In this document: in pieces, positions 12,863-48,832 of the stretch
Layout of the letters: each line of letters starts with the position of its first letter
Position numbering within the stretch: position 1 is the stretch's first letter
The notes under the pieces: generated by a model
What the model was told of the DNA's origin: nothing
Database searches by the model: none
Seen by the model: only the letters and a program-made list of their open reading frames with translations
Assembly (NCBI RefSeq): GCF_029167375.1
Contig: NZ_JARFTP010000031.1
Span: 1-48,832 of the forward strand
Source: Tsukamurella sp. 8F
GTDB taxonomy: Bacteria > Actinomycetota > Actinomycetes > Mycobacteriales > Mycobacteriaceae
Reading direction: 5' to 3'
Length of the DNA: 48,832 nucleotides
Made by a program: the position numbers and the translations under genes

Positions 12863-13495
12863 ATGGCGACCCCAACGGCGACGACCGCGACAGAGCGCAA
12901 GGCCGAACTCCGGGAATCGATCGTCTCCGCTGCCTTCGACGAGTTCGCGCACCGCGGCTACCACAACACGTCCATCGCCGACATCGCGCGACGCCTGGGA
13001 ATCGGCCACGGCACGTTCTACCGGTACTTCGAGAACAAGCGGGACATCCTCGACCACGTGGTGAGCGACACCGTGGAGAAGATCACGGAGGTGTTGACCG
13101 AGCAGGAGACACCCGATGAGGCGACGACGCTGGCCGAGTACCGGCAACAGTCCGACCGTATCGCCCGGGCGCTGCAGGAGATCTTCCTCGCGGACCACCG
13201 CCTGATCCGGATACTGCTGTTCGAGTCCACCGGCATCGATCGCGAGCTCACGGAACGGCTCACGGGTCTTCTGGACACGGCGGCGACTCTGACCCGCGAA
13301 TATCTCGAGAACGGCGTCGAGCGCCGGTTCCTCCGCCCCGACCTCGATACCCAGAACACGGCCCGCGCGATCAACGGGATGATCCTCGCCGGCGCGCTGC
13401 ACGGGCTCTCCTCGCCGGAGATCGTCGATACGTTCCCGGCGGCGGTGTCGACCCTGGTGTTCGGGTCGATCGCCGCCGGCTCCGAGGACGGCTGA
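12863..13495 (+). CDS. TetR-family transcriptional regulator
   Basis: 210-residue repressor with an N-terminal HTH (ELRESIVSAAFDEFAHRGYHN, then TSIADIARRLGIGHGTFYRYF, about residues 15-62) and a variable C-terminal ligand-binding domain rich in helices. Its divergent position and the palindrome at 12802-12823 indicate that it controls itself and the monooxygenase operon. The ATG at 12863 is probably leaderless: a TACGCT -10 hexamer ends 8 nt upstream (12849-12854) and no Shine-Dalgarno is present. The ABC1 kinase gene follows after 5 nt and is likely co-transcribed. The ligand is unknown. Confidence 0.92.
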   Translation: MATPTATTATERKAELRESIVSAAFDEFAHRGYHNTSIADIARRLGIGHGTFYRYFENKRDILDHVVSDTVEKITEVLTEQETPDEATTLAEYRQQSDRIARALQEIFLADHRLIRILLFESTGIDRELTERLTGLLDTAATLTREYLENGVERRFLRPDLDTQNTARAINGMILAGALHGLSSPEIVDTFPAAVSTLVFGSIAAGSEDG

Positions 13496-13500
13496 CGGCG

Positions 13501-14832
13501 GTGGGTTCCGACGACCACGCCGAGCGCGCCACGCGTCTGCGACGCGGGGCCCGACTGGGTGCGGCGGCCGCCCGGCACGCCGTCGACGGCGTCGGCGGAC
13601 GCGGAGCCGACATGGACGACCGGGCCGCGATCCGCGCGGCAGGTCGTCTGGTCGCCGTCCTCGGCGACATGCGCGGCGCGGCGATGAAGCTGGGCCAGAC
13701 GCTGGCCACCGTCGATCTCGGCCTGGTGCCCCCACACGCCCAGCCCGAGTTCGCCGCAAGGCTCGCGGAGCTCACGGATCGCGCCCCGGCGGCGGCCTTC
13801 GAGGACGTCCTGCCCATCCTCGAGGAGGACTGCCCGATAAGCGCGTTCGCCGACATCGACCCCGAGCCGTTCGCTGCGGCGTCGATCGGGCAGGTGCATC
13901 GCGGCCGCACACGGGACGGCCGCGAGGTCGTACTGAAGGTGCAGTATCCGGACATCGAGACGCTGATCCGCGCGGACCTGAAGAATCTCGCCTTGTTCCT
14001 GCGGCTGTGGCGTGGACGCCGGGCGGAGCTGCTCCGGGCGGAGGAGGTGCTCGCCGAGATCAACGCGACGATCCTCTGCGAGCTCGACTACCCCGCCGAG
14101 TGCGCAGCACAGGAGTCGGCGGCTCGGCGCTACGCCGGACACCCGTTCATCCGTGTACCGGCGCCGCTGCCGCAGTTGTCCGGGCGCCGGGTGCTCGTCA
14201 CCGAGTACTGTCCGGGCGAGCGCTTCGGAACGCTCGCATCCGCGCCCGAGGCCGAACGGAATCGCGCGGCCGAGATCGTGCATCGCTTCTACGTCGGCGG
14301 TATCTTCCGGGACGGCGAGTTCTGTGGTGACCCCCACCCCGGCAACGTGCTGGTGTGCGACGACGGCAGGCTCGCCTTCCTCGACTACGGCCTGTACAAG
14401 CGTCTCGGACGTGACGACGTCGCGTTCCAGCGTGACTGTTTCCGGGCGGCGGCCGAGCGGCGCGCCGATGATCTGCTGGCGATGCTCCGCGGCGTGGGTG
14501 CGGTCACGGGCCGCGGTCCCGACCCGGCCCGGCTGCTGGAGTACTTCCGTGCGGCGGGGCCGTGGCATCTCGACGATCACATCCTGCACATCGACGCGGA
14601 AACCGTCCGCCGTGCGGCCGCCGCAGCGACCAGGCCACCGGAGTCGGAGCCGCCACTCGTGCTGCCTGCCGGGCACACGTTCTCCCGCCGCGCGGAGGTG
14701 CTGGCGTTCGGGCTCGTGGCCCGCCTGGACGCGACGGCCGACTGGCACCGGATCTGCCGCGAGTGGGTGTACGGCGATGCGCCGAGTACGGTCCTGGGCC
14801 GCGAGCACGAGCGCTGGGCGGCGGCGCGCTGA
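13501..14832 (+). CDS. ABC1/ADCK (UbiB-like) atypical kinase
   Basis: 443-residue member of the ABC1/COQ8/UbiB family. It shows the family's KxGQ motif (MKLGQTLAT, residues 62-70), the Ala-rich nucleotide loop AAASIGQVH replacing the glycine loop, a catalytic-loop GDPHPGNV and a LDYG metal-binding motif (LDFG in most relatives). Members support quinone lipid synthesis or transport in the membrane. In this menaquinone-rich neighbourhood that role is attractive but inferred. GTG start at 13501, 5 nt after the tetR stop. It converges on menE with only 4 bp between stop codons, so no independent terminator separates them. Confidence 0.88.
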   Translation: MGSDDHAERATRLRRGARLGAAAARHAVDGVGGRGADMDDRAAIRAAGRLVAVLGDMRGAAMKLGQTLATVDLGLVPPHAQPEFAARLAELTDRAPAAAFEDVLPILEEDCPISAFADIDPEPFAAASIGQVHRGRTRDGREVVLKVQYPDIETLIRADLKNLALFLRLWRGRRAELLRAEEVLAEINATILCELDYPAECAAQESAARRYAGHPFIRVPAPLPQLSGRRVLVTEYCPGERFGTLASAPEAERNRAAEIVHRFYVGGIFRDGEFCGDPHPGNVLVCDDGRLAFLDYGLYKRLGRDDVAFQRDCFRAAAERRADDLLAMLRGVGAVTGRGPDPARLLEYFRAAGPWHLDDHILHIDAETVRRAAAAATRPPESEPPLVLPAGHTFSRRAEVLAFGLVARLDATADWHRICREWVYGDAPSTVLGREHERWAAAR

Positions 14833-14836
14833 GCCG

Positions 14837-15967
14837 CTATCGGCCGCCGAAGCGTTCGACCAGGGCCCGCCTGTCGATCTTGCCCGGTCCACGGCGCGGG
14901 AGCTCGTCGACGTGGAACACCTCGCGAGGCGCGGCGGTCCGATCGAGCGTCGCGGTCACCGTTTCCCGCAGTTCGTCGAGGGTCGCCGACCCGACGACGG
15001 CGGCTACGACCCGCTGTCCCAGGCGCGGATCGGGCAGCCCGAACACCGCGACCTCCCGCACCCCGGGCGCACCCGCAAGCGCGGTCTCGACGACCTGGGG
15101 GAGCACCGTCAGGCCGCCGGTCGAGATGGCCTCGTCGAGCCGCCCCGTCACCGACAGGACCCCCTCGGTGCTGAGCGCGCCCGCATCGTCGGTCCGGAAC
15201 CAGCCGCTCCGTGCGAACGCGGGGTGATCGGGACGGCCCCGGTAGCCGAGGGCGACGGTGGCCCCGCCCAGCCAGACGCGGGAATCGCCGTCCAGGGCCA
15301 CGCGCACGCCGGGCAGCGCGAGGCCGTCGTATACGCAGCCACCGCACGTCTCGCTCATACCGTAGGTGCGGACCATGCGTACGCCCGCGGCGAGCGCGGC
15401 CTCGCGGACCGGCGGCGGGCATGCGGCGCCGCCGATGAGTACGCCGTCGAACTCCGCTAGGACGGCCGTCGCGGCCGGGTCCGCGAGAACCTTGATGAGC
15501 TGGGTGGGGACCAGGGAGACGTACCGCCGGGGGGCCGTCATGCGGGTCATGCCGTCCTCCAGCGACGACGGTGCGAAGCCCTCGGCCACATCGATTCCTA
15601 CGGGGGTGTACCCGGCGCCGAGCGAGCGCAGCATGACCTGCACCCCCGCGACGTGGTGCGGAGGCATGGCGAGCAGCCACTGCCCGGCTCCGCCGAGCCG
15701 TTCGTGCGTGCCGGACGCGCTTGCGAGCAGGGCCTCGTGCGTGAGCATCGCGCCCTTCGGGGTGCCGGTCGTGCCGGACGTCGCGACGACGAGAGCGGCG
15801 CGGTCGTCGATGGGCGAGCCGGCCCCGAGGGCGTTCGTGAGCCGGGCGGCCTCACGCGGGTCGCGAGCGGGGACGGGCAGCAACGCCGGCGCGGCGCCGT
15901 CCAGGAGTGCGGTGAGGCCGGACAGGGCCGACTCGACGGTGTCGATCGGCAGGGGAGTGAGATTCAC
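14837..15967 (-). CDS. menE: o-Succinylbenzoate-CoA ligase MenE
   Basis: 376-residue ANL-superfamily ligase that activates o-succinylbenzoate with ATP and CoA for menaquinone synthesis. The P-loop TSGTTGTPKG is at residues 63-72. Other hallmarks are MPPHHVAGVQV, RTYGMSETCGG, the TDD/GRLDE hinge, and the C-terminal lysine in RRGPGKIDRRAL. It is short for an ANL enzyme but normal for actinobacterial MenE. Start GTG at 15967, overlapping the stop of the DUF3349 gene by 4 nt (GTGA). This menE-DUF3349-membrane protein-pitA run matches Rv0542c-Rv0545c in M. tuberculosis, a strong positional argument for the assignment. Confidence 0.93.
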   Translation of the reverse strand: MNLTPLPIDTVESALSGLTALLDGAAPALLPVPARDPREAARLTNALGAGSPIDDRAALVVATSGTTGTPKGAMLTHEALLASASGTHERLGGAGQWLLAMPPHHVAGVQVMLRSLGAGYTPVGIDVAEGFAPSSLEDGMTRMTAPRRYVSLVPTQLIKVLADPAATAVLAEFDGVLIGGAACPPPVREAALAAGVRMVRTYGMSETCGGCVYDGLALPGVRVALDGDSRVWLGGATVALGYRGRPDHPAFARSGWFRTDDAGALSTEGVLSVTGRLDEAISTGGLTVLPQVVETALAGAPGVREVAVFGLPDPRLGQRVVAAVVGSATLDELRETVTATLDRTAAPREVFHVDELPRRGPGKIDRRALVERFGGR

Positions 15968-16341
15968 GCGCCGCCGTACGGGCCGTCGGTGTGCGGATCG
16001 TCGGGGTCGCTGCCGGTACGGCGCAGCGGCTCGTCGTCGAACGGCCACCCCTTGCGCTCGAGGCGCTCCCGGACACGTCGGACATCGTTCTCGGAAGGCA
16101 GCTGATGCGTGCGCTGGGCTATCTCGGTGCCGGCGTCGACGCGGCTGATCGGCTCGATACCCTCGGGGGTGACCGTGGCGTTCTCGATGAGACGGCGGGT
16201 GACCGCCTTGACCTCGTCCTGCGTGAGCTGCCGTTCGAGCAGCGCGAGCAGTGGCTGGTAGTCGGTGTGCGGCACGCCGTCCGGATAACCGGCGCGCAGC
16301 CAGTCCACGATGCGTGTCACGAAGCCCTGGCCTCGAGCCAT
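15964..16341 (-). CDS. DUF3349 protein (Rv0543c-like), longer copy
   Basis: 125 residues. The DUF3349 core (about 1-105) begins FVTRIVDWLRAGYPDGVP, then TDYQPLLALLERQLTQDEV and a terminal VRRVRERLERKGWPF. It is followed by an acidic, Pro/Asp/Gly-rich tail. The family forms a small helical bundle of unknown function; a solution structure exists for the M. tuberculosis member. It overlaps the menE start by 4 nt. The ATG at 16341 has a GAGAGGATGAG Shine-Dalgarno-like sequence. A shorter paralogue sits 85 bp upstream, across a strong hairpin. The association with menE and pitA is conserved but its meaning is unknown. Confidence 0.88.
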   Translation of the reverse strand: MARGQGFVTRIVDWLRAGYPDGVPHTDYQPLLALLERQLTQDEVKAVTRRLIENATVTPEGIEPISRVDAGTEIAQRTHQLPSENDVRRVRERLERKGWPFDDEPLRRTGSDPDDPHTDGPYGGA

Positions 16342-16361
16342 GATCTCATCCTCTCGCTGAA

Positions 16362-16404
16362 CCGGATCAGCCCCTCATCCCACCAGGATAAGGGGCTGAT
16401 CCGG
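16362..16404. promoter_or_regulatory. 14-bp-stem hairpin between the two DUF3349 genes
   Basis: Perfect inverted repeat CCGGATCAGCCCCT (16362-16375) and its complement (16391-16404) with a 15-nt loop. It lies in the 84-bp gap after the first DUF3349 gene and ends about 20 nt before the second one's ATG. There is no T-run. Transcriptional attenuation, partial termination or mRNA stabilisation between pitA/DUF3349 and DUF3349/menE are all possible. Confidence 0.6.
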
Positions 16405-16425
16405 TCGTGTCCGTGCGGGCGGGCC

Positions 16426-16737
16426 CTAGTTGAAGCCGGTGAGCGGCCAGCCGCCGGCGGCGAGCCGGGCGGCCACGGTGCGCAGGTCGTCCGCGCTGGG
16501 CTCGGCTTGAGTTACCTTCGTGATCGCGTCCTCGATCTCCTTGCGGTCCAGCGAGCCCTCGGGCCGGGAGGCGAGCAGGCGGCCGATCACCTGGTGCAGC
16601 TCGTCGTCCGACAGGTTGCGCTTCAGCAGGGCGAGCAGGGGGAAGTAGTCCTTCGGCGGCACGCCCTCCGGGTAGCCCTGTCGCAGCCACTCGAGCACCT
16701 GCGTGAAGACGTTGTCCTGGGTGTTCTGCGTGGTCAT
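16426..16737 (-). CDS. DUF3349 protein, shorter paralogue
   Basis: 103 residues. The core resembles the neighbouring copy: VFTQVLEWLRQGYPEGVPPKDYF aligns with its WLRAGYPDGVPHTDYQ, then PLLALLKRNLSDDELHQVIG, and a terminal VAARLAAGGWPL. It lacks the acidic tail of the longer copy. Tandem duplication followed by divergence is the simplest explanation. Function unknown. ATG at 16737; the small membrane-protein gene ends 7 nt upstream, so it is probably co-transcribed from the pitA side. Confidence 0.86.
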   Translation of the reverse strand: MTTQNTQDNVFTQVLEWLRQGYPEGVPPKDYFPLLALLKRNLSDDELHQVIGRLLASRPEGSLDRKEIEDAITKVTQAEPSADDLRTVAARLAAGGWPLTGFN

Positions 16738-16744
16738 GGCGCTC

Positions 16745-17047
16745 CTACTTCTTGTCCACGAGCGTGGGGTAGATGTTGTCGAAGCTCACCTTCATGCCGA
16801 AGCCGGGAGCCACGATGACCATGAGGCCGATCACGACTGCGACGACAACGACGATGAAGGCGACCGCGGCGATGACGTTGCCCAGCGGGTTCGGCTTGTG
16901 CACCTGCCCGTCGGCGGCCTCGTGGCCGTTGCCCATGGCGATGCCGCGCACGCCGACCGCGAACAGGGCCGGCAGCCCTGCGCCGAGTATGAGGCCGATG
17001 ACGAGGATCTTCCAGATGGCGCTGAAAAGAACGGTGACCTGATCCAT
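16745..17047 (-). CDS. Small two-helix membrane protein (Rv0544c-like)
   Basis: 100 residues with two hydrophobic segments (IWKILVIGLILGAGLPALFAVG near residue 10-32 and VIAAVAFIVVVVAVVIGLMVIV near 60-82), a polar loop containing HEAADGQVHKPNP between them, and a short C-terminal segment ending TLVDKK. Function is unknown. The ATG at 17047 lies 5 nt after the pitA stop, so it is in the pitA operon. The same order (pitA, small membrane protein, DUF3349, menE) occurs in Mycobacterium, which suggests it may be an accessory subunit of the phosphate permease. This is inference from gene order only. Confidence 0.82.
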   Translation of the reverse strand: MDQVTVLFSAIWKILVIGLILGAGLPALFAVGVRGIAMGNGHEAADGQVHKPNPLGNVIAAVAFIVVVVAVVIGLMVIVAPGFGMKVSFDNIYPTLVDKK

Positions 17048-17052
17048 GACGG

Positions 17053-18303
17053 TTAGACCTTCGCAATCTTCTGGTCGGCGGGGACGATGGAGCCCGACTC
17101 GTCCCACTCGGCGTTGACGTTCCCAGCGTCGACCTTCTGCTGCTGGGCGCGGTAGTACATGTAGCCGGCGAGGCCGAGCAGGATCGCGAACACGACCAGG
17201 GGGCCGGCGATCCCGGGGATGTAGTGGGCGATGAACCACATGATCGCGCCGACGACCGCGGCGGCCGGGAGTGTGATGACCCACGCCGTGACCATGCGCA
17301 GCGCGACGCCCCAGCGGACCTGTGCGCCGGGCTTGCCGACTCCGGCGCCGAGGATCGAGCCGGTTGCGACGTGCGTCGTCGACAGTGCGAAGCCGAGGTG
17401 GCTCGAGACCAGGATGACGGTCGCGGACGCGGCCTCGGCGGCCATACCCTGCTGCGGGGTGATCTCGATCAGCCCCTTGCCGAGCGTGCGGATGATGCGC
17501 CAGCCGCCGATGTAGGTGCCGAGCGCGATCGCGAGGGCGCAGGCGAACTTGACCCAGACGGGGACCCCCTCGGTGGAGTGCCAGGCGAACATCCCGGTGC
17601 TGTCCGGGGTGCTGGCGCTGTAGCCGATCAGCGCGAGGGTGATGACACCCATGGTCTTCTGCGCATCACCGGTGCCGTGTGCGAGCGAGACCATCGAGGC
17701 GGTGCCGATCTGGCCCCAGCGGAAGCCCTCCTCGGTGAACCGCTCGGCGATGCCGGTGACGATCTTGAAGACGACGAACGTACCGATCGCAGCCACGACG
17801 CCGGCGATCACCGGCGAGAACAGCGCGGGGAGGATCACCTTGCCGAATACGCCGTCGAGCTTGCCGTGGCCGTTCCAGACGACGCCGGAGATGCCGAGGG
17901 CGGCGAGAGCGGCACCGATGAGGCCGCCGAACAGCGCGTGCGAACTGGAGCTCGGTAGACCGAGCAGCCAGGTGAGCAGGTTCCAGACGATGCCGCCGAC
18001 CAGTCCGGCCATGACGATCACGAGAAGCGCTCGCCCGTGGTTCGCCGTGAACTCCGCCTTGGGCGCTCCGGACTTGTCCTGGATCTTGATGACCGAGTTG
18101 GTGACGGTCAGGGCGACCTCCACGGAGAGGAAGGCGCCTACGAGATTGAGGATCGCGGACAGCGTGACCGCCGTCTTGGGCTTGAGGGCACCGGTAGCGA
18201 TGGACGTGGCCATCGCGTTCCCGGTGTCGTGGAAGCCGTTGGTGAAATCGAATGCCAAGGCAATGACGATCACCAAGAGCAAGATGATCAGTTCGCTGTT
18301 CAT
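17053..18303 (-). CDS. pitA: Low-affinity inorganic phosphate transporter PitA
   Basis: 416-residue PiT-family (PF01384) permease, probably a proton-coupled metal-phosphate symporter. The duplicated PiT signature is visible: FDFTNGFHDTGNAMATSIATG near the N-terminus and ALSTTHVATGSILGAGVG near residue 320. The PSSSSHALFGGLIGAAL segment is also present. About ten transmembrane helices can be counted, with a short hydrophilic C-terminus. The ATG at 18303 gives the standard N-terminus MNSELIILLLV; further upstream sequence is not family-like. A PHO-box-like direct repeat overlaps the likely -35 region (18400-18417), so phosphate-starvation control is suggested. The small membrane protein, DUF3349 genes and menE follow. 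Confidence 0.95.
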   Translation of the reverse strand: MNSELIILLLVIVIALAFDFTNGFHDTGNAMATSIATGALKPKTAVTLSAILNLVGAFLSVEVALTVTNSVIKIQDKSGAPKAEFTANHGRALLVIVMAGLVGGIVWNLLTWLLGLPSSSSHALFGGLIGAALAALGISGVVWNGHGKLDGVFGKVILPALFSPVIAGVVAAIGTFVVFKIVTGIAERFTEEGFRWGQIGTASMVSLAHGTGDAQKTMGVITLALIGYSASTPDSTGMFAWHSTEGVPVWVKFACALAIALGTYIGGWRIIRTLGKGLIEITPQQGMAAEAASATVILVSSHLGFALSTTHVATGSILGAGVGKPGAQVRWGVALRMVTAWVITLPAAAVVGAIMWFIAHYIPGIAGPLVVFAILLGLAGYMYYRAQQQKVDAGNVNAEWDESGSIVPADQKIAKV

Positions 18304-18385
18304 GAGGTGGATTCTGCTGCCCTTCACTTCAATGCACCAAACGGAGCCGACGGCCGAATTGTGCCATTGACCTGGGGATTCCGCC

Positions 18386-18417
18386 CCTATATGGAGACAG
18401 TTCACCCAATGTTCATC
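18386..18417 (-). promoter_or_regulatory. PHO-box-like direct repeat and -10 for pitA
   Basis: GTTCACC (18400-18406) and GTTCATC (18411-18417) form a direct repeat with 11-bp period, the spacing of PhoP/RegX3-type boxes (GTTCACC repeats). On the minus strand a TATAGG hexamer (18391-18386) lies 17 bp downstream, so the box covers the -35 position, as for an activator-dependent promoter. The pitA ATG is about 80 bp further on. Confidence 0.55.
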
Positions 18418-18496
18418 AACCGTCGGCCGGGTAGCCTCCCGGGCCGCGCACCGCGCGTGTCCGCGGTGCGCCCGGACCCGTGTCTAGGATCACCGC

Positions 18497-19624
18497 ATGA
18501 CCTCACTGGACATCCGGGTGCTCGGGCAGGTGTCGATGTCGGTAGGGGGCGCCCCTAACGAGGTGTCCGGGGTGAAGCCGCGGTCCGTGTTGGCGATCCT
18601 CGTGCTCAACCGGAACCGGGCGGTCACCGTGGACTCGCTGAGTGAGCAGGTGTGGGACGGCAACCCGCCGGCGTCGGCGGTCGCGAGTCTCCAGGTCTTC
18701 GTGTCGGGCCTGCGCAAGGCGCTGCGCGGACCTGACGGCGGATCCGGTTTCGACGGCCGACTCGTCACCGCCGGGCGGACGTATCGCCTCGATCTCGACC
18801 CCGAACAGTCCGATATCGGGCGCTTCGACGCGTCCCGCCGCCGCGGTGCCGAGCTCGCCGCAGCGGGCCGGTACGAGCAGGCGTCGCTCGCCTACGCGAA
18901 GGCTCTCGCGGAGTTCCGCGGCGACCCGGTCGCAGACCTCCGTGGACTGCAGTTCGCCGACACGTTCGCGCTCGGGATGGAGGAGGAGCGAGCGGCTGCG
19001 CAGTCCGCTATGTACGACGCGGAGATCGCGGCCGGACGCGCGTCGGCTGTCGTCGGCGACCTGCGGCGGCTCGTCACGGAGAATCCCCTGCGCGAGCCGT
19101 TGTGGGCGCAGCTCATCAGCGCGTTGTACCTGTCGGGGCGGCAGGCCGACGCGCTCGACTCGTGCCGGGAACTGCGCCGGGTACTCGCCGACGAGCTGGG
19201 GATCGATCCGTCGCCCTCGCTGGTCGCTCTGGAGCAGTCGGTGCTGCGGCAGGAGCCGCTCGCCGCATCGCCCGTGGCGCGCACGGTCGATCCCCGGGCG
19301 TTCGAGAAGACGGAGACCGACGTCGGCGACGGTGCGGTGCTCGCGCGCGGGCGCCTCGTAGCGCCGGACGGCACCGAGTACCCCGTTGCGGGTGAGGTCC
19401 GGCTCGGCCGGCTGCCCGACAACGACATCCCCGTGGACGACACCAAGGTGTCCCGCGAGCATGCGATCATCACACCCACCGTCGCGGGTTTCACGGTCCG
19501 CGACCTGCAGTCTTCCAACGGCACGTATGTGGGCGACCGACGGGTCGAGGGGTCCGCTGTGCTGGCCGACGGTGACGAACTCCGCGTCGGGCGTGTGATC
19601 TTCCGGTTCGCCGTGGACGTCTAG
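18497..19624 (+). CDS. EmbR-like regulator (winged helix, BTAD, FHA)
   Basis: 375-residue transcription factor with the EmbR/SARP-FHA architecture. Residues 1 to about 95 are an OmpR/PhoB-type winged helix (VKPRSVLAILVLNRNRAVTV, then ASLQVFVSGLRKAL). About 100-250 is a bacterial transcriptional activation domain (BTAD) with TPR-like helices (YEQASLAYAKALAEFRGDPV). About 290-375 is an FHA domain with the phosphothreonine-binding residues (RLGRLPDNDI, VSREHAII, SSNGTYVGDR). In mycobacteria EmbR is phosphorylated by Ser/Thr kinases and acts on arabinosyltransferase genes; no emb genes are in this window, so the target is unknown. The ATG is leaderless-like: TAGGAT (18485-18490) ends 6 nt upstream. 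Confidence 0.9.
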   Translation: MTSLDIRVLGQVSMSVGGAPNEVSGVKPRSVLAILVLNRNRAVTVDSLSEQVWDGNPPASAVASLQVFVSGLRKALRGPDGGSGFDGRLVTAGRTYRLDLDPEQSDIGRFDASRRRGAELAAAGRYEQASLAYAKALAEFRGDPVADLRGLQFADTFALGMEEERAAAQSAMYDAEIAAGRASAVVGDLRRLVTENPLREPLWAQLISALYLSGRQADALDSCRELRRVLADELGIDPSPSLVALEQSVLRQEPLAASPVARTVDPRAFEKTETDVGDGAVLARGRLVAPDGTEYPVAGEVRLGRLPDNDIPVDDTKVSREHAIITPTVAGFTVRDLQSSNGTYVGDRRVEGSAVLADGDELRVGRVIFRFAVDV

Positions 19625-41656: not shown

Positions 41657-42088
41657 ATGCCCCCGAAGAAGAAGAAGGTCGCCGGGCTCATCAAGCTGCA
41701 GATCCAGGCCGGGCAGGCCAACCCCGCCCCGCCCGTGGGTCCTGCGCTGGGTCAGCACGGCGTCAACATCATGGAGTTCTGCAAGGCGTACAACGCCGCG
41801 ACCGAGTCGCAGCGTGGCAACGTCATCCCGGTCGAGATCACGGTCTACGAGGACCGCTCGTTCGACTTCAAGCTGAAGACTCCTCCGGCCGCCAAGCTGC
41901 TGCTGAAGGCAGCGGGCGTGCAGAAGGGCTCGGGCGAGCCGCACAAGAACAAGGTCGCCAAGGTGACCTGGGATCAGGTGCGCGAGATCGCCGAGACCAA
42001 GAAGGAGGACCTGAACGCCAACGACATCGATCAGGCCGCGAAGATCATCGCCGGTACTGCTCGGTCGATGGGCATCACGGTCGAGTAA
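41657..42088 (+). CDS. rplK: Ribosomal protein uL11
   Basis: 143-residue large-subunit protein. Starts [20 protein letters not shown], then [19 protein letters not shown] (the thiopeptide/23S contact loop) and ends [11 protein letters not shown]. It is complete and typical. ATG at 41657 with AAGGAAACAAGG upstream. rplA follows after 87 bp, with a 16-bp palindrome immediately after the stop codon. Confidence 0.96.
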
Positions 42089-42175: not shown

Positions 42176-42448
42176 ATGAGCAAGAAGAGCAAGGCCTTCA
42201 AGGCCGCTACCGAGAAGATCGACAAGGACAAGCTGTACAGCCCGCTCGATGCTGTGAAGCTGGCCAAGGAGACCTCCTCCACCAAGCAGGACGCCACCGT
42301 CGAGGTCGCCATGCGCCTGGGCGTCGACCCGCGCAAGGCGGACCAGATGGTCCGCGGCACCGTCAACCTGCCGAACGGCACCGGTAAGACCGCGCGCGTC
42401 GTGGTGTTCGCCGTCGGAGCCAAGGCCGAAGAGGCTAAGGCCGCGGGG
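42176..42448 (+). pseudogene. rplA: Ribosomal protein uL1, 3'-truncated at a GC-only junction
   Basis: The first 91 codons are an intact uL1 N-terminus ([20 protein letters not shown], then [20 protein letters not shown] and [19 protein letters not shown]). Homology then stops in a tract of G and C homopolymers. The family is about 235 residues, so more than half is absent, including the second domain's MPNPKTGTVT. No in-frame stop follows the junction: the frame runs to 43750 across the neighbouring aminotransferase in a wrong frame. ATG at 42176 and its spacing after rplK are normal. A loss of this universally conserved gene with no stop codon suggests misassembly more than natural decay. 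Confidence 0.85.
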
Positions 42449-42479
42449 GGCCCCCCCGGGGGGGCCCCCGCGCCCCCCC
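42441..42479. other. 39-nt G/C-only homopolymer junction
   Basis: After CCGC the sequence is six G, seven C, seven G, five C, GCG and seven C, ending before CTCGTCC. The block 42451-42464 is a perfect palindrome of C and G runs. It separates truncated rplA from a Shine-Dalgarno (CGGAGGAGGG) serving the aminotransferase. Such runs are typical of poly-G sequencing artefacts or low-quality contig ends; a genuine rearrangement cannot be excluded. Confidence 0.85.
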
Positions 42480-42509
42480 TCGTCCAGACCACGACCGGAG
42501 GAGGGCAAG

Positions 42510-43808
42510 ATGACCGTCGTCGACTCACAGGCCGCGGAGAGCGGCGCGGGTGCCGTCTTGGACGGGCCTGCCCTGTGGCCCGCGCAGGCCCACACCCCGA
42601 CGGTGCTAGGTCGCCAGTTGGTCATCGACCGCGCGCAGGGCGCGTACGTCTATACCGCCGACGGACGTCGTCTCTTCGACGGGACCGCGGGGCTGTGGCA
42701 CGCCAACATCGGCCACTGCCATCCGGAACTCGCCCATGCCGCGTTCGACCAGATGAACAGGCTCGAGACCTACCACACGTTCGCACGCTTCGTGAACGAC
42801 AAGGCGCTGGCCCTGGGGGAGCGGCTCGCGGCGATCGCGCCGATCGAGCGCGCGAAGGTGATCCTGGGCTCCGGCGGATCCGACGCCATCGACGTCGCGT
42901 GCAAGCTGGCGCGCCGACACTGGCAGCGCGAGGGCCGCGCCGGCAAGACGATGATCGTCAGCCGCGAGTTCGCCTACCACGGGTTGCACGCCTATGGGAC
43001 GTCGATCGCCGGCCTGCCGTTCAACCGCGAGGGTTACGGCACCGAGTCGCTGGTGCCGGAGACCGCCCGCGTCCCCGTACACGACGCAGACGCGCTGGCG
43101 AGCCTCATCGACGAGGTCGGTGCCGACAACATAGCGGCGTTCATCACCGAGCCCGTGCAGGGCACCGGTGGTGTCAACCCGCCCGCCGACGGGTACCTGG
43201 AAGCCGTGCAGCGGCTGTGCCGCGACAACGACATACTGCTGATCCTCGACGAGGTGATCACCGGATTCGGCCGGGTGGGAACGATGTTCGCCGCCGAGCG
43301 ATACGGTGTGCGGCCGGACATGGTCACGTTCGCCAAAGGTGTCACGTCCGGCTACGCCCCGCTCGGCGGGGTGCTTGTGGCGCCCCGGATCTGGGAACCC
43401 TTCTATGTGGACGCGCCCGGGACGCCGATCTTCCGGCACGGCGCCACCTATGCGGGTCACGCGACCGCGGCGGCGGTCGCGCTCGCGCACCTCGACATCC
43501 TCGAGCGAGAGGAGCTCGTACCGCGTGTTCGGGAGCTCGAAACCGTTCTGCAGCAGTCGCTCGCGTCCATGGCGGAGCGGACCGACGGGGTCGTGGACGT
43601 CCGCGTTGCGGGACTACTCGGCGGAGTGACCCTGGCGGACCGCCTGTCGGCCGAGCGGGTGGCCGACGACCTGATCGAGACGGGCTTCATCTCGCGGCCG
43701 TTGCGCGGCAACACATTGCAGATCAGCCCGCCGTTCATCATCAGCGATGACGAGCTCGTCGGCTACGTCGACGCGATCGGCCGCGCAGTTGCGGAGGCGG
43801 ATCGATGA
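42510..43808 (+). CDS. Class III (omega) aminotransferase
   Basis: 432-residue PLP-dependent transaminase of fold type I, class III. PLP lysine Lys276 in [31 protein letters not shown] (247-260) and [15 protein letters not shown] are typical. Likely substrates are omega-amino acids or diamines such as putrescine, GABA or beta-alanine, with pyruvate or 2-oxoglutarate as acceptor; specificity is not readable. ATG at 42510 has CGGAGGAGGG upstream and is intact, although it starts 30 nt after the GC junction, so promoter and upstream partners are lost. It overlaps the aldehyde dehydrogenase by 4 nt (ATGA). Confidence 0.92.
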
Positions 43809-45265
43809 CCGTGACAGCTGTGGGTGCCCGTGAGGGGATGGCGATCGCCGACGGCGTGGTGGAGTCGCTCGGCCTGCCGTCGTCGGGCATAGACGTGCGC
43901 GACCCCGCGACGTCGGAGGTCATCGGGCGCGTACCGGATATCGATGTGCCGGGTGCGCTGTCCGCCGTCCATACCGCCGCGCGAGCCGGGGCCGAGTGGG
44001 CGCGGACCACACCGCGCGAGCGGTCCGATGCGCTGTACGCGTGGTGGCGACTGCTGGTCGACGATGCCGAGAGCATCGCCCATCTCATCACGCGCGAGAT
44101 GGGCAAGCCGCTCGCCGAGGCGCGCGGCGAGGTGAAGTACGGCAGCGACTTCGTGCGCTGGTATGCCGAGGAGGCCGTGCGCCCTGGTGGCGGATACCGC
44201 GACGCCCCCGACGGCGGAGCCAGCATCCTCACGCGCCGCTCACCGGTCGGTCTCGCGGTACTCATCACTCCGTGGAACTTCCCTCTGGCCATGGCGACTC
44301 GGAAGATCGCACCTGCCCTGGCGGCCGGGTGCCCAGCCGTCGTCAAGCCCGCGACCGCTACCCCGCTGACGACGTTGTACGCGGTCCAGCTGGCCCGGAA
44401 GGCAGGGATCCCGGAGGATCTCGTCCAAGTGGTGACGACGTCCGATTCGGGTGCCTTCAGCGAGGCGGTCCTGCGCCAGGAGCAGGTCCGGAAGGTGTCG
44501 TTCACCGGCTCGACCCCTGTGGGCCAGCGCCTCATGCGCCTCGCCTCCGAGAACGTACTGCGTTCGTCGATGGAGTTGGGCGGCAATGCTCCTCTGTTGG
44601 TCTTCGACGACGCCGACCTGGAGCGGGCGGTCGCCGGCGCGGTGGCGGCCAAGCTGCGGAACGGCGGTCAGTCGTGCATCGCCGCCAACCGGATCTACGT
44701 GCAGGACGGTATAGCCGACGATTTCGTCGCCGCGTTCGCTGCGCGCCTCGCCGAGACGAAGGTGGGCAGCGGTTTCGCGGAGGGCACCGCGGTCGGTCCC
44801 CTGATCGATGATCGCGCTGTCGCACAGATGAGTGCCCTCACCGACGACGCGCTCGCGCGCGGCGCGGTACTGCGGGCCGGCGGTGCCGCGGTGGGCGGCG
44901 AGGGCAGCTTCTTCGTCCCGACGGTGCTCGACCGTGTCCCGGGGGACGCAGACGTCGTGCGCTCCGAGATCTTCGGGCCGATCGCGGCGGTGCAGCGGTT
45001 CTCGACAGAGGAGGAGGTACTCGGCCGGGCGAACGACACCGAATACGGCCTCGCCGGTTACGTCTTCACCGAGAACCTGGACCGTGCACTCGACGTCGCC
45101 GACCGCCTTCAGACGGGGCTCGTGGGCATCAATCAGGGCGTCCCCTCCAATGCCGCAGCGCCTTTCGGCGGCATCAAACAGTCGGGACTGGGCCGAGAGG
45201 GAGGCGCCGAGGGGCTCGAGGAGTATCAGAACGTGCGGTTCTACAACATCGCGCGGCGCCGGTGA
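43805..45265 (+). CDS. NAD(P)-dependent aldehyde dehydrogenase (succinate-semialdehyde type)
   Basis: 486-residue ALDH. Catalytic Cys291 in GGQSCIAANRIYV and general base Glu257 in MELGGNAPLLVF. PWNFP (156-160), KPATATPLT and FTGSTPVGQRL form the cofactor pocket. Position and overlap (ATGA) with an omega-aminotransferase indicate that it oxidises the semialdehyde made by that enzyme, for instance succinate semialdehyde to succinate. The substrate assignment is an inference from pairing and the SSADH-like motifs. It ends about 50 bp before the PPOX gene, which has its own promoter. Confidence 0.92.
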   Translation: MTVTAVGAREGMAIADGVVESLGLPSSGIDVRDPATSEVIGRVPDIDVPGALSAVHTAARAGAEWARTTPRERSDALYAWWRLLVDDAESIAHLITREMGKPLAEARGEVKYGSDFVRWYAEEAVRPGGGYRDAPDGGASILTRRSPVGLAVLITPWNFPLAMATRKIAPALAAGCPAVVKPATATPLTTLYAVQLARKAGIPEDLVQVVTTSDSGAFSEAVLRQEQVRKVSFTGSTPVGQRLMRLASENVLRSSMELGGNAPLLVFDDADLERAVAGAVAAKLRNGGQSCIAANRIYVQDGIADDFVAAFAARLAETKVGSGFAEGTAVGPLIDDRAVAQMSALTDDALARGAVLRAGGAAVGGEGSFFVPTVLDRVPGDADVVRSEIFGPIAAVQRFSTEEEVLGRANDTEYGLAGYVFTENLDRALDVADRLQTGLVGINQGVPSNAAAPFGGIKQSGLGREGGAEGLEEYQNVRFYNIARRR

Positions 45266-45275
45266 CCCGTCGTCC

Positions 45276-45306
45276 TTGACCTCAACCCGAGTCGAGGTCG
45301 TAGCGT
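45276..45306 (+). promoter_or_regulatory. MerR/SoxR-type promoter and operator for the PPOX gene
   Basis: TTGACC (45276-45281) and TAGCGT (45301-45306) are separated by 19 bp, the long spacing used by MerR-family activators. Within it a dyad GACCTC...GAGGTC (45278-45299) is centred, with 8 of 10 arm positions matching. The ATG is 7 nt after the -10 hexamer. No MerR gene is in this window. Confidence 0.55.
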
Positions 45307-45313
45307 CGGCGGC

Positions 45314-45766
45314 ATGTTCACCGACTACGAGCTCGAATACCTCTCCGGCCAGCACCTGGGGCGGCTCGCCACCGCGGCACCCGATGGGACGCTACAGGTC
45401 AGCCCCGTCGGGTTCGGCGTCAACGAATCCCTCGGGACCATCGACATCGGGGGGTACAACATGGAGCGGAGCCGCAAGTTCCGCAACGTGCGTGACAACG
45501 GGCGGGTCGCGTTCGTGGTCGACGACGTCTACTCGACCGATCCGTGGCGCGTGCGCTTCCTCGAGATCCGGGGGACCGGAGAGGCACTCGCCGATCCCGA
45601 GGACTCCAGGGGGCACGCGGGTGCCGGGCCGATCATTCGGGTGTATCCGGCGCGCATCCTCACGCTCGCGCTGCTGCCGGGCGACCTCGACACCGAGCCG
45701 CATCTCGTCGGTATGCGCAGCCGCGACGTCGGTGTCGCCCGGACGGAGGGCCGACAGACGGGCTAG
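45314..45766 (+). CDS. PPOX-class (split-barrel) F420/FMN-binding oxidoreductase
   Basis: 150-residue split beta-barrel flavin/deazaflavin-binding protein of the pyridoxamine-phosphate-oxidase superfamily. Core: LEYLSGQHLGRLATAAPDGT, GYNMERSRKFRNVRDNGRVA and WRVRFLEIRGTGEAL. Actinobacterial members include F420-dependent reductases and haem-degrading enzymes; which applies here is not known. ATG at 45314 is leaderless-like, 7 nt after TAGCGT, and the promoter has MerR-type 19-bp spacing. Its stop codon overlaps that of the convergent Cys-rich gene (CTAG). Confidence 0.87.
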   Translation: MFTDYELEYLSGQHLGRLATAAPDGTLQVSPVGFGVNESLGTIDIGGYNMERSRKFRNVRDNGRVAFVVDDVYSTDPWRVRFLEIRGTGEALADPEDSRGHAGAGPIIRVYPARILTLALLPGDLDTEPHLVGMRSRDVGVARTEGRQTG

Positions 45767-46017
45767 ACGGACTCGCGAGTCCGGCTGGTGCGGTCGTTCA
45801 GGGCGCCGTGGCCGTCCCGTCTCGCGCAGTGGGCACAGCAGAACACATCCGCGTCGACCTGCACCCCGTGCCCCAGGACGCGGCATCCGCACGACGCACA
45901 CGTCGGGGCGAGAGCGGTGATGGCGCACTCGAAACTGTCGAACTGCCAAGCGGTTCCGTTATGGATGACCGTGAACGCGGCGTCGTAGTCGTTGCCGCAC
46001 GTGTGGCATGTGGTCAT
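45763..46017 (-). CDS. Small Cys-rich zinc-binding protein (metallothionein-like)
   Basis: 84-residue protein with nine cysteines (residues 4, 7, 31, 40, 43, 45, 60, 61, 64) and nearby histidines: CHTCGND, SFECAI, CASCGCRVLGHGV, CCAHCAR. The pattern resembles actinobacterial proteins labelled prokaryotic metallothionein and can bind zinc or other metals. A redox- or metal-buffering stress function is plausible. It is the third gene of a minus-strand trio (72-residue protein, CBS protein, this gene), 10 nt after the CBS stop. The stop codon overlaps the convergent PPOX stop. The exact family is uncertain. Confidence 0.75.
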   Translation of the reverse strand: MTTCHTCGNDYDAAFTVIHNGTAWQFDSFECAITALAPTCASCGCRVLGHGVQVDADVFCCAHCARRDGHGALNDRTSRTRESV

Positions 46018-46027
46018 GCGCGTCTCC

Positions 46028-46444
46028 TCAGTCGTATGACAGAGCGGTGATCAGGTCACCGACGGTCGGCTCGGACAACGTTCGCGCGACATCGGCCTGG
46101 GCGATGATGCCGACGAGGCGGTGACCGTCGATGACGGGGATACGCCGCACCCGGTGGTGGCACATGGTGGCGAGCAGGTCGCCCGTGTCGTCGTCGGCGC
46201 CGATGGTGACCGCCTCGCCCTGCGCCGGTTCACCGGCGTGGACGGTGGCCGGATCGTGCCCGCGGGCGATCACCTTGGTGACTATGTCGCGGTCTGTGAC
46301 GACACCCTCGAGGCGATCGTCCTTGCCGCACACCGGCAACGATCCGACGTGCTGTTCGTTCATGATGCGTGCGGCATCCTGCGCGGTGGCGGTGCTGTCG
46401 ACGCATTGGACACGCGGATGCATGATCTCGCGGGCTGTCGTCAT
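46028..46444 (-). CDS. CBS-domain pair protein
   Basis: 138-residue protein consisting of two CBS motifs (Bateman module): TAREIMHPRVQCVDSTATAQ and then RLEGVVTDRDIVTKVIARG; second GEAVTIGADDDTGDLLATM and RIPVIDGHRLVGIIAQADVA. Stand-alone CBS pairs bind adenine nucleotides and are often induced in hypoxia or stress in mycobacteria. The ATG at 46444 overlaps the stop of the upstream 72-residue gene (ATGA). In a stress-type operon led by sigma-F/B-like promoters. Confidence 0.9.
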   Translation of the reverse strand: MTTAREIMHPRVQCVDSTATAQDAARIMNEQHVGSLPVCGKDDRLEGVVTDRDIVTKVIARGHDPATVHAGEPAQGEAVTIGADDDTGDLLATMCHHRVRRIPVIDGHRLVGIIAQADVARTLSEPTVGDLITALSYD

Positions 46445-46659
46445 GATGTCTCTCCTCTCTCGGCCTGGACCGGTCGGCGGGAGTCGTCGGATGCCTGCAG
46501 ACTCTCGGCGACCCGCATGGAGACGGTGCGCCTGGGACCTCCGGCGAGCGGCTCGAGCTCGACGTAGCTGAACGGCGCGCGGCGGATCGCCGCGACGCGG
46601 TACTGCACGCGCCGGCCCGTGGTCGACGGGGTACTCAATCGTGTTCCGCGTGTGATCAT
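46441..46659 (-). CDS. Small protein of unknown function, first gene of the CBS operon
   Basis: 72 residues, basic and Ser/Arg-rich: TRGTRLSTPSTTGRRVQYRV, then APFSYVELEPLAGG and VSMRVAESLQ. I do not recognise the family. That it is real is supported by a strong GGAAGGGAG Shine-Dalgarno, a 4-nt ATGA overlap with the CBS gene, and sigma-F/B-type promoters upstream. The C-terminal 15 residues are rich in charged residues and likely unstructured. A small DNA- or RNA-binding role is conceivable but unsupported. Confidence 0.7.
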   Translation of the reverse strand: MITRGTRLSTPSTTGRRVQYRVAAIRRAPFSYVELEPLAGGPRRTVSMRVAESLQASDDSRRPVQAERGETS

Positions 46660-46713
46660 GTGGCGCTCCCTTCCGAGCGATCGGCCCGGTGCCTGTCCCG
46701 GGTCGGCCTTCGG

Positions 46714-46738
46714 GTACCCGCGGTCGTGCGCGACAAAC
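46714..46738 (-). promoter_or_regulatory. Sigma-F/B-type promoter for the CBS operon
   Basis: On the minus strand GTTT (46738-46735), a 15-bp spacer and GGGTAC (46719-46714), about 55 bp before the 72-residue gene's ATG. Matches the GTTT-N14-17-GGGTA(C/T) consensus of actinobacterial sigma-F/sigma-B promoters. Confidence 0.65.
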
Positions 46739-46761
46739 CCCGTCCCGTGGGATTCGTGGAC

Positions 46762-46806
46762 GTTTGGCGCCTGGACTCGTGGGTACCCGGCGTCCAGCCG
46801 TCAAAC
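46762..46806. promoter_or_regulatory. Bidirectional sigma-F/B-type promoter for csbD and the CBS operon
   Basis: Plus strand: GTTT (46762-46765), 15 bp, GGGTAC (46781-46786). Minus strand: GTTT (46806-46803), 14 bp, GGGTAC (46788-46783). Both use the same GGGTACCC palindrome (46781-46788) as the -10. csbD begins about 45 bp downstream on the plus strand. Confidence 0.65.
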
Positions 46807-46831
46807 CCCGAAATGAAAGGGAGGGATATCG

Positions 46832-47074
46832 ATGGCAGAGAACACCGGCCCCGCGGAGGCAGCGAAGGGTCTCACCGAGGACGTGAAGGGCAAGGCCAAG
46901 GAAGCCGCCGGCACCGTGTTCGGCCGGGACGACCTGGTCGACGAGGGCCGCGCCCAGCAGGACAAGGCCGCCGACCAGCGTCAGGCGGCCGAGCACGAGG
47001 CGAAGGCCGAGAAGAAGCGCATGGATGCCGAGAACGCCGAGGCCGGGCAGGCCGACGCGCAGCGGCAGCGCTGA
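46832..47074 (+). CDS. CsbD-family stress protein
   Basis: 80-residue hydrophilic, Ala/Lys/Glu/Gln-rich protein. N-terminal EAAKGLTEDVKGKAKEAAGT resembles CsbD, a sigma-B-dependent general stress protein in Bacillus and abundant in actinobacteria; the second half (QDKAADQRQAAEHEAKAEKK) is a charged helix. Molecular function unknown. ATG at 46832 with AAAGGGAGGG upstream. A sigma-F/B-type promoter lies about 45 bp before the start. A 10-bp-stem hairpin follows. Confidence 0.85.
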   Translation: MAENTGPAEAAKGLTEDVKGKAKEAAGTVFGRDDLVDEGRAQQDKAADQRQAAEHEAKAEKKRMDAENAEAGQADAQRQR

Positions 47075-47083
47075 CCGGCCGGC

Positions 47084-47118
47084 GAGGTGGCGGGCGCCCG
47101 TCGGGCATCCGCCACCTC
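47084..47118 (+). terminator. Hairpin terminator after csbD
   Basis: GAGGTGGCGG (47084-47093) and CCGCCACCTC (47109-47118) form a perfect 10-bp stem, with a smaller GCCCG/CGGGC stem inside the loop. 9 nt after the csbD stop; no T-run. Confidence 0.6.
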
Positions 47119-47197
47119 CGCACGTCGAGCGCGGGTGCCCGTTGGGCGTGGGGGACGTGACGACGCGGCCGCGAAGACGTTGTGGACGTCCGTACGG

Positions 47198-47223
47198 GTT
47201 TGCGCTGACGACGAGCAGGGTAG
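47198..47223 (+). promoter_or_regulatory. Sigma-F/B-type promoter for dps
   Basis: GTTT (47198-47201), 16 bp, GGGTAG (47218-47223), about 73 bp before the dps ATG. Same class as the csbD/CBS promoters. Confidence 0.55.
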
Positions 47224-47296
47224 GCCTTTCGGAAGCGCTGCCCGGTCGGCACGAGCCGGCAGGGTGGACGACCGGAGCGACAGGAAGGACCACAAG

Positions 47297-47869
47297 ATGA
47301 CCACGACAGAGCATCCCGTCCCGGGCACTATCGAGTTCACCGTGCCTGGAATGGCGGACGGCGACGCACGATCCGTCGTCGACATCCTCCAGGACCGGCT
47401 GAATGCGCTCAACGATCTGGCGTTGACGCTCAAGCACATCCACTGGAACGTGGTCGGGCCTCAGTTCATCGCGGTGCACACGATGCTCGATCCCCAGGTC
47501 GACGCCGTGCGCCTGATGGCCGACGAGACCGCCGAGCGCATCGCCGCTCTGGGTGGGGTGCCGGTCGGGACTCCCGGTGCGCTTGCGGCGCAGCGTGGCT
47601 GGGACGACTACGACCTGGGTCGAGCCGATGCCATCGCCCATATGGGCGCGCTCGACGTGGTCTATGCGGGCGTCATCGAGGCGCATCGGCGGGCGATCGC
47701 CGATACGGAGGGCCCGGACCCGGTCACTCAGGACATGCTCATCGGGCAATCGCACCGGCTCGAGCAGTTCCACTGGTTCGTGCGGGCGCATCTGGAGGGT
47801 CCGAGCGGAACCCTCACGACTGCTGGCGCGGACACGGAGCGGACCGCCGCTCAACGCGCGCAGTCGTGA
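47297..47869 (+). CDS. dps: Dps ferritin-like DNA-protection protein
   Basis: 190-residue Dps-family miniferritin. Ferroxidase ligands expected in KHIHWNVVGPQFIAVH, DAVRLMADETAERIAALGG, as in other Dps dodecamers. It binds DNA and oxidises iron with peroxide, protecting DNA in stress. The N-terminus is slightly extended (about 25 residues before the core), which may carry DNA-binding lysines/arginines or not. ATG at 47297 has AGGAAGGACC upstream. Preceded by a GTTT-N16-GGGTAG promoter. pfpI follows after 35 nt. Confidence 0.92.
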   Translation: MTTTEHPVPGTIEFTVPGMADGDARSVVDILQDRLNALNDLALTLKHIHWNVVGPQFIAVHTMLDPQVDAVRLMADETAERIAALGGVPVGTPGALAAQRGWDDYDLGRADAIAHMGALDVVYAGVIEAHRRAIADTEGPDPVTQDMLIGQSHRLEQFHWFVRAHLEGPSGTLTTAGADTERTAAQRAQS

Positions 47870-47904
47870 GGCGCCGCTACCGCACAGCGAGAAGGAGGAG
47901 ACAC

Positions 47905-48465
47905 GTGGTAGACGACATGCAGGGCAAGACGGTCGCGTTCCTGGTCGCACCCGAAGGTGTCGAGCAGGTCGAGTTGACGGAGCCTTGGCGTGCGGTCGAG
48001 AGCATAGGCGTCACACCGTGCCTGGTGTCCACACAGGCGGGGTCGGTGCAGGCGTACCGTCATCTCGACCGCGCGGACACGTTCCCGGTCGAGATGACGG
48101 TGGACGACGTCGTTGCAGACAGATTCGACGCACTCGTCCTGCCTGGCGGGGTGGCGAATCCCGACTACCTGCGCACTATTCCGGGTGCGGTCGGCTTCAC
48201 GCGCCGGTTCTTCGAACTCGGCAAGCCGGTCGCCGTCATCTGCCACGGGCCGTGGACCCTCGTCGAGGCGGGAGTCGTGGACGGACGCTCCCTCACCTCA
48301 TGGCCGAGCTTGCGCACAGATATCAGCAACGCCGGTGGGCACTGGACGGACAAGGCCGTGGTCACCTGCACGAGGGGACCTAACACGCTGATCTCGAGTC
48401 GCATGCCGGACGACCTGCCGGAGTTCTGCGCGACGCTCCGCGCAGAACTGCGGGGCGCGGAATAG
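47905..48465 (+). CDS. DJ-1/PfpI-family protein
   Basis: 186-residue DJ-1/PfpI glutamine-amidotransferase-like protein. Nucleophile Cys113 in AVICHGPWTLV and a conserved Glu20 near the N-terminus (APEGVEQVE). Such proteins act as deglycases, proteases or glyoxalases; the exact activity is not known. GTG start at 47905, with GAAGGAGGAG 5 nt upstream. It follows dps closely on the same strand and is probably in the same stress operon. Confidence 0.9.
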   Translation: MVDDMQGKTVAFLVAPEGVEQVELTEPWRAVESIGVTPCLVSTQAGSVQAYRHLDRADTFPVEMTVDDVVADRFDALVLPGGVANPDYLRTIPGAVGFTRRFFELGKPVAVICHGPWTLVEAGVVDGRSLTSWPSLRTDISNAGGHWTDKAVVTCTRGPNTLISSRMPDDLPEFCATLRAELRGAE

Positions 48466-48481
48466 CATTGCGGCCCGCCGA

Positions 48482-48832
48482 CTACAGCAGGGCGTCGGCG
48501 GCAAGGCGCCAGTCTGCGCGGGGTGCGACGTCCATCGACGGCCCGAGCACCTGGAGCAGTACCGTGTCGGCGCCTGCGTCGAGGTGATCTCGAACCCTTG
48601 CGGCAGTCGCGTCGAGACCGTGGGTGACGAGCGCGGACTTGAGTCGATCGCTGCCCCCTCGCACGAAGTCCTCCTCCGAGAAGCCTTGGCGCACCCAGGA
48701 TCTGCGGTAGTTGGGAAGCCCTGTGTAGACGTTCAGGTGATCGTGCGCGCGGCGACGCCACTCGTCGCCGTCGGCGGTGGGATCGATCACGCACGCCTGC
48801 TCCACCGCAAGCAGCCGGGCCCCGCCGCCCGC
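48482..48832 (-). CDS. F420-dependent LLM-class oxidoreductase, C-terminal part (partial)
   Basis: Partial gene: 116 codons are open to the window's last base and the real start lies outside. The C-terminal region of an LLM (luciferase-like monooxygenase) TIGR03620-type protein: ARLLAVEQACVIDPTADGDE, HLNVYTGLPNYRRSWVRQGF, GGSDRLKSALVTHG and HLDAGADTVLLQVLGP. The stop TAG is at 48482-48484. It converges on pfpI with a 16-bp gap. Confidence 0.85.
   Translation of the reverse strand, partial: AGGGARLLAVEQACVIDPTADGDEWRRRAHDHLNVYTGLPNYRRSWVRQGFSEEDFVRGGSDRLKSALVTHGLDATAARVRDHLDAGADTVLLQVLGPSMDVAPRADWRLAADALL

Follow-up and report, generated by a model that had tools for sequence, protein, structure and literature searches.

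The break within rplA (uL1) is in all probability (about 97%) the result of a sequencing and assembly artefact and not of biology. The window analysed here is the entire contig C25 with its 48832 bases; in it, the 5' part of rplA runs into a tract of G and C behind which an unrelated segment is attached, while the true continuation of the operon was identified at an end of another contig of the same assembly, C27. The features concerned are compiled in Table 1, whereby the name uL11 for the gene product encoded in front of rplA is presumed from its sequence and from its position.

Table 1. Features on both sides of the rplA break in the window (contig C25).
Feature	Coordinates	Strand	Evidence and remarks
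Intact rplK (uL11, presumed), on the side of the break regarded as true	41657..42088	+	ORF, 143 aa
rplA (uL1), 5' part, codons 1-91	42176..42448	+	start at 42176, codon 91 at 42446-42448; Pfam Ribosomal_L1 profile 2-63 of 198; blastn against 10 congeners
G/C-only run; very likely artefact tract and false join	42439..42479	.	41 nt; homopolymer part 42445-42479
Unrelated segment attached by the tract (tail)	42480..48832	.	no match in the roughly 19 kb behind rplA of 10 congeners; contig-like composition
Class-III aminotransferase, intact, outside the rplKA operon	42510..43808	+	432 aa; Aminotran_3, E 4e-87, profile 11-402 of 403
Aldehyde dehydrogenase, next after the aminotransferase	43805..45265	+	Aldedh, E 5e-151

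That rplA is cut at codon 91 by a block of G and C had been claimed in a preliminary description of this DNA, and the claim is borne out by the letters themselves, by the match to the Ribosomal_L1 profile, which is restricted to positions 2-63 of 198, and by the homology to congeners, which ends at base 42447. Likewise confirmed was the lack of a stop codon after the interrupted gene: the rplA frame is open for 524 codons in all, running through the tract and overlapping the aminotransferase gene in another frame, and no stop soon after the break closes a shortened uL1. The block itself had been given as 39 bases; a pure G/C block is present, but its length is 41 nt, of which 35 nt make up the homopolymer part with the order G6 C7 G7 C5 G C G C7. 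It is the window's longest G/C-only run (the runner-up has 23 nt), contains three of the four homopolymers of at least 7 found in the window and includes the perfect palindrome G5 C7 G7 C5. Blocks of G and C alternate in the tract instead of forming one plain joint of poly-G and poly-C, which counts against the artefact reading and leaves the exact assembler step unexplained. Behind the tract, the unrelated and intact aminotransferase gene with an upstream signal of its own was found as described before, namely as a complete ORF with GGAGGAGGG upstream.

The second half of rplA, stated to be missing at this place, is indeed absent from it: uL1 was found to be full-length in 20 of 20 relatives, with one match each, whereas the single uL1 match in the strain's own genome (family search, both of the 2 candidates scored) covers less than half of the profile. 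For comparison at the DNA level, the window's last 8.8 kb were aligned with one 19.9 kb stretch from each of 10 congeners; most of this DNA lies downstream of rplA. Six of the stretches start inside rplK and four further to the right, so that the left part of the match differs between them. Blastn gave one match per congener with 87-90% DNA identity, starting in rplK and continuing into rplA for the former six, and ending at base 42447 in 10 of 10; homology to relatives hence breaks at the joint in each of them. Right of the tract, no match was obtained to the roughly 19 kb that follow rplA in these 10 genomes. The congeners with their intact rplA thus share with the window the rplK part and rplA up to this base, while the rest of rplA, some small genes and then rplJ follow in the congeners and the corresponding DNA lies here, with a gap, at the C27 end.

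The evidence for this continuation comes from DNA of congener G001 located 3' of rplA, which was aligned with the strain's own genome, whereby the best 40 of 586 candidates were scored. The query matched the minus strand of C27, in order and in five pieces which reach the contig end, and judged by their translations we take rplJ and rplL to be among these pieces. Besides those on C25 and C27, weak short matches were obtained on C17, C34 and C1 (E 4e-4 to 7e-4; best 40 of 586 candidates). C27 comprises 48169 bp, its final letters are GGGGGGGC, and its tip ends in a G7 run. From the position of the break in rplA to that of the C27 tip, 1227-2138 bp are found in the 10 congeners. This interval of 1.2-2.1 kb, which includes the second half of rplA, was not recovered from the readable assembly, neither among the best 40 of 586 candidates nor by the uL1 family search. 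Outside the readable assembly there are six short contigs (C62-C66 and C68, 2841 bases in all) which were read as N, and these might hold the missing half of rplA. As an observation on the congener itself, G001 was found to carry between rplA and rplJ several small genes for membrane or secreted proteins, some of which resemble copies of one another; parts of the same stretch (12941-19468 of the compared piece) match at the C27 end.

Tracts of this kind are widespread at the contig ends of the assembly, which possesses 140 such ends, 12 of them from masked contigs and 128 readable. A G or C run of at least 6 within the last 60 bases was found on 59 of the 128 readable ends, as compared to 8 of 1624 60-mers from the window's interior (each chunk counted twice, once per strand; chunks touching the tract excluded) and to 1 of 128 readable stretches located 280-340 bases inside the ends (132 in all, 4 masked). 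When read outwards, runs of at least 9 consist of G on 35 ends and of C on 10, hence outward G runs at contig ends far exceed the background. The remaining 69 readable ends, among them both ends of C25, possess no run of at least 6, which counts against the artefact reading. For the word G9, the count is 506 in this genome as compared to 2, 14, 0, 0, 4, 4, 4 and 0 in the congeners G001 to G008, so that the excess is one of this assembly and is not shared by the genus. Four genomes from the same order have counts of 0, 35, 31 and 31; with 31-35 in three of them, a part of such words is not specific to this assembly, a point against the artefact reading. The pattern G5-C5-G5 was found at seven places, i.e., near the ends of C18, C21, C23 and C37 and inside C25, C49 and C33, whereby the match inside C33 resembles ordinary sequence, and the tracts of this genome vary in both length and order.

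Two further tracts locate to the interior of contigs. On C10 (80552-80616), flank, G run, C runs and flank follow upon each other, and in five of six congeners the two sides of this tract map to different contigs or to places separated by at least 0.55 Mb, the sixth showing a match on the right side only. The left-flank match stops about 1.65 kb before the tract, and the C10 joint itself is therefore not pinned; still, this tract is probably a second false join in the same assembly. The third internal tract, on C49 (14389-14425), lies some 2 kb before the end of its contig; of its flanks the left alone matches congeners (6 of 6), and it speaks neither for nor against the artefact reading, a third false join being possible. 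The exact 25-mer of the window's tract was moreover identified in a genome collection on six contigs from bacteria of unrelated groups, each contig being named in the SPAdes style; in four of them it lies at most 40 bases from a contig end, and in two, which count against the artefact reading, it is internal, once close to a run of N. The window shares with these short-read assemblies the identical 25-mer within a G/C mosaic, but differs from them in that its tract lies inside the contig, as a join between two segments unrelated to each other. The 25-mer could possibly serve as a quality flag for public assemblies.

The segment behind the tract was characterized with regard to its origin. Its aminotransferase has relatives of at most 47% identity in 12 congeners, and the aldehyde dehydrogenase has relatives annotated as succinate-semialdehyde dehydrogenase; on Rhodococcus plasmids, such a dehydrogenase was seen paired with an aminotransferase at about 67% DNA identity. 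A Pfam scan further revealed pyridoxamine-oxidase-like, CBS, ferritin-like (presumably of the Dps type) and DJ-1/PfpI proteins as well as a CsbD-like protein scoring below the Pfam cut-off, while the ninth protein scanned, at the contig end, gave no Pfam family. In G+C content (0.69) the tail agrees with the remainder of the contig, and its tetranucleotide distance to the contig body amounts to 0.117, 13 windows of the body ranging from 0.105 to 0.190; towards a 19 kb piece of C10, distances of 0.155 (tail) and 0.123 (rest of the contig) were obtained. Bases 48482-48814 share 81% identity with congener G007. When the home of the 6.35 kb tail was sought in 14 relatives, scattered pieces were among the matches listed (20 candidates scored per genome), and its true place was not identified in this way, a point against the artefact reading. 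In a plasmid search with the tail, 1050 records were hit. Identity was 60-80% for 1029 of these, no record covered 80% of the tail, and the tail was not placed by this search. The tail probably represents accessory DNA of this genome, within which the aminotransferase segment most likely belongs elsewhere.

In two-colour sequencing, the absence of signal is called G, and false G runs are formed at read ends. Considering this, the proposed course of events assumes that short reads of this type, with missing signal called G, would carry false poly-G ends, that real coverage would end in rplA at codon 91, and that the poly-G ends would extend the contig outwards with G. A second contig end would be extended likewise, with the added G appearing as C on the opposite strand; the assembler would then join both ends via the low-complexity G/C block, with the true operon continuation being the C27 end and the aminotransferase segment coming from elsewhere. 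The left segment is followed by G6 and the right segment is preceded by C7, an arrangement expected of such a join. Coverage gap, machine type, assembler and assembler step are what we infer here. The suggestion of a poly-G artefact or a contig-end join, voiced in the preliminary description, thus held, given the operon continuing at a C27 end with a G7 tip and the like tracts on readable contig ends. Sections of published reports describe G as the base without label in two-channel systems including the NextSeq 2000 (PMC11140927), and polyG tails, said to be 'common in NovaSeq', as being removed by fastp 1.0, with polyG trimming intended for two-color chemistry (PMC12527978). Poly-G in this assembly, being found mostly outward at contig ends, is similar to the poly-G read tails of two-colour Illumina instruments (NextSeq, NovaSeq); it differs in that the artefact is built into contig ends and internal joins and not into reads alone, with an instrument of this type being presumed. 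Among the titles listed in literature searches, none dealt with poly-G blocks at bacterial contig ends, and a printed account may nevertheless exist.

Several other explanations have to be weighed against this one. The adjacency could be real, with rplA having lost its second half to a deletion or rearrangement that also introduced the aminotransferase segment, so that only the G/C letters of the joint would be wrong. Such a scenario would fit with the missing half being absent from the searchable assembly and with the tail having the composition of the same contig, but the joint resembles the tracts on 59 of the 128 readable ends, the missing piece might reside on the six masked short contigs with their 2841 bases, and the operon resumes at the C27 tip. 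As this tip carries G7 and follows after 1.2-2.1 kb in congeners, a coverage gap would account for the loss of rplA sequence. A real truncation was consequently rejected, owing to the resumption of the operon and to the frequency of such tracts; the real adjacency is very unlikely, and that the strain truly lost the second half of rplA by rearrangement and survives with an L1 of about the first 91 residues is even harder to credit. Insertion into rplA of a real G/C-homopolymer element, e.g., a palindromic or slippage-prone tract, would be in line with the perfectly palindromic G5 C7 G7 C5 and with the identical 25-mer in other genomes. However, the carriers of this 25-mer are unrelated short-read assemblies with the word at most 40 bases from a contig end in four of six, the genome's own tracts differ among themselves, and a plain insert would leave the second half of rplA behind, none of which matches right of the tract. 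Since rplA fails to resume there, the insertion was rejected, its likelihood being next to nil.

Contamination of the contig by a tail from another organism would constitute a variant of the artefact reading and not an alternative to it. It is suggested by the aminotransferase, for which no relative above 47% identity was found in 12 congeners, and by the larger tetranucleotide distance of the tail to the C10 piece. This distance is slightly above the value for the remaining contig, whereas G+C content and tetranucleotide make-up agree with the same contig, bases 48482-48814 match G007 at 81% identity, and the contamination listed for the assembly is 0.62%. A foreign tail is therefore unlikely by composition, and we regard it as improbable.

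With the sequencing and assembly artefact as the preferred reading, the earlier proposal that a real break would mean the loss of domain II of L1, and thereby an influence on exit site and rplKA autoregulation, finds no support; claims on any of these have no footing in the rplA break. The relevance of the finding is that of a warning only. Internal false joins are present in a draft genome with a listed completeness of 99.96%, very likely at the window's tract, probably on C10 and possibly on C49, and as G/C blocks mark such joins, gene truncations and gene neighbourhoods read near them are unsafe. Elsewhere among public assemblies, this type of error could be detected by a simple scan for mosaics of G/C homopolymers.
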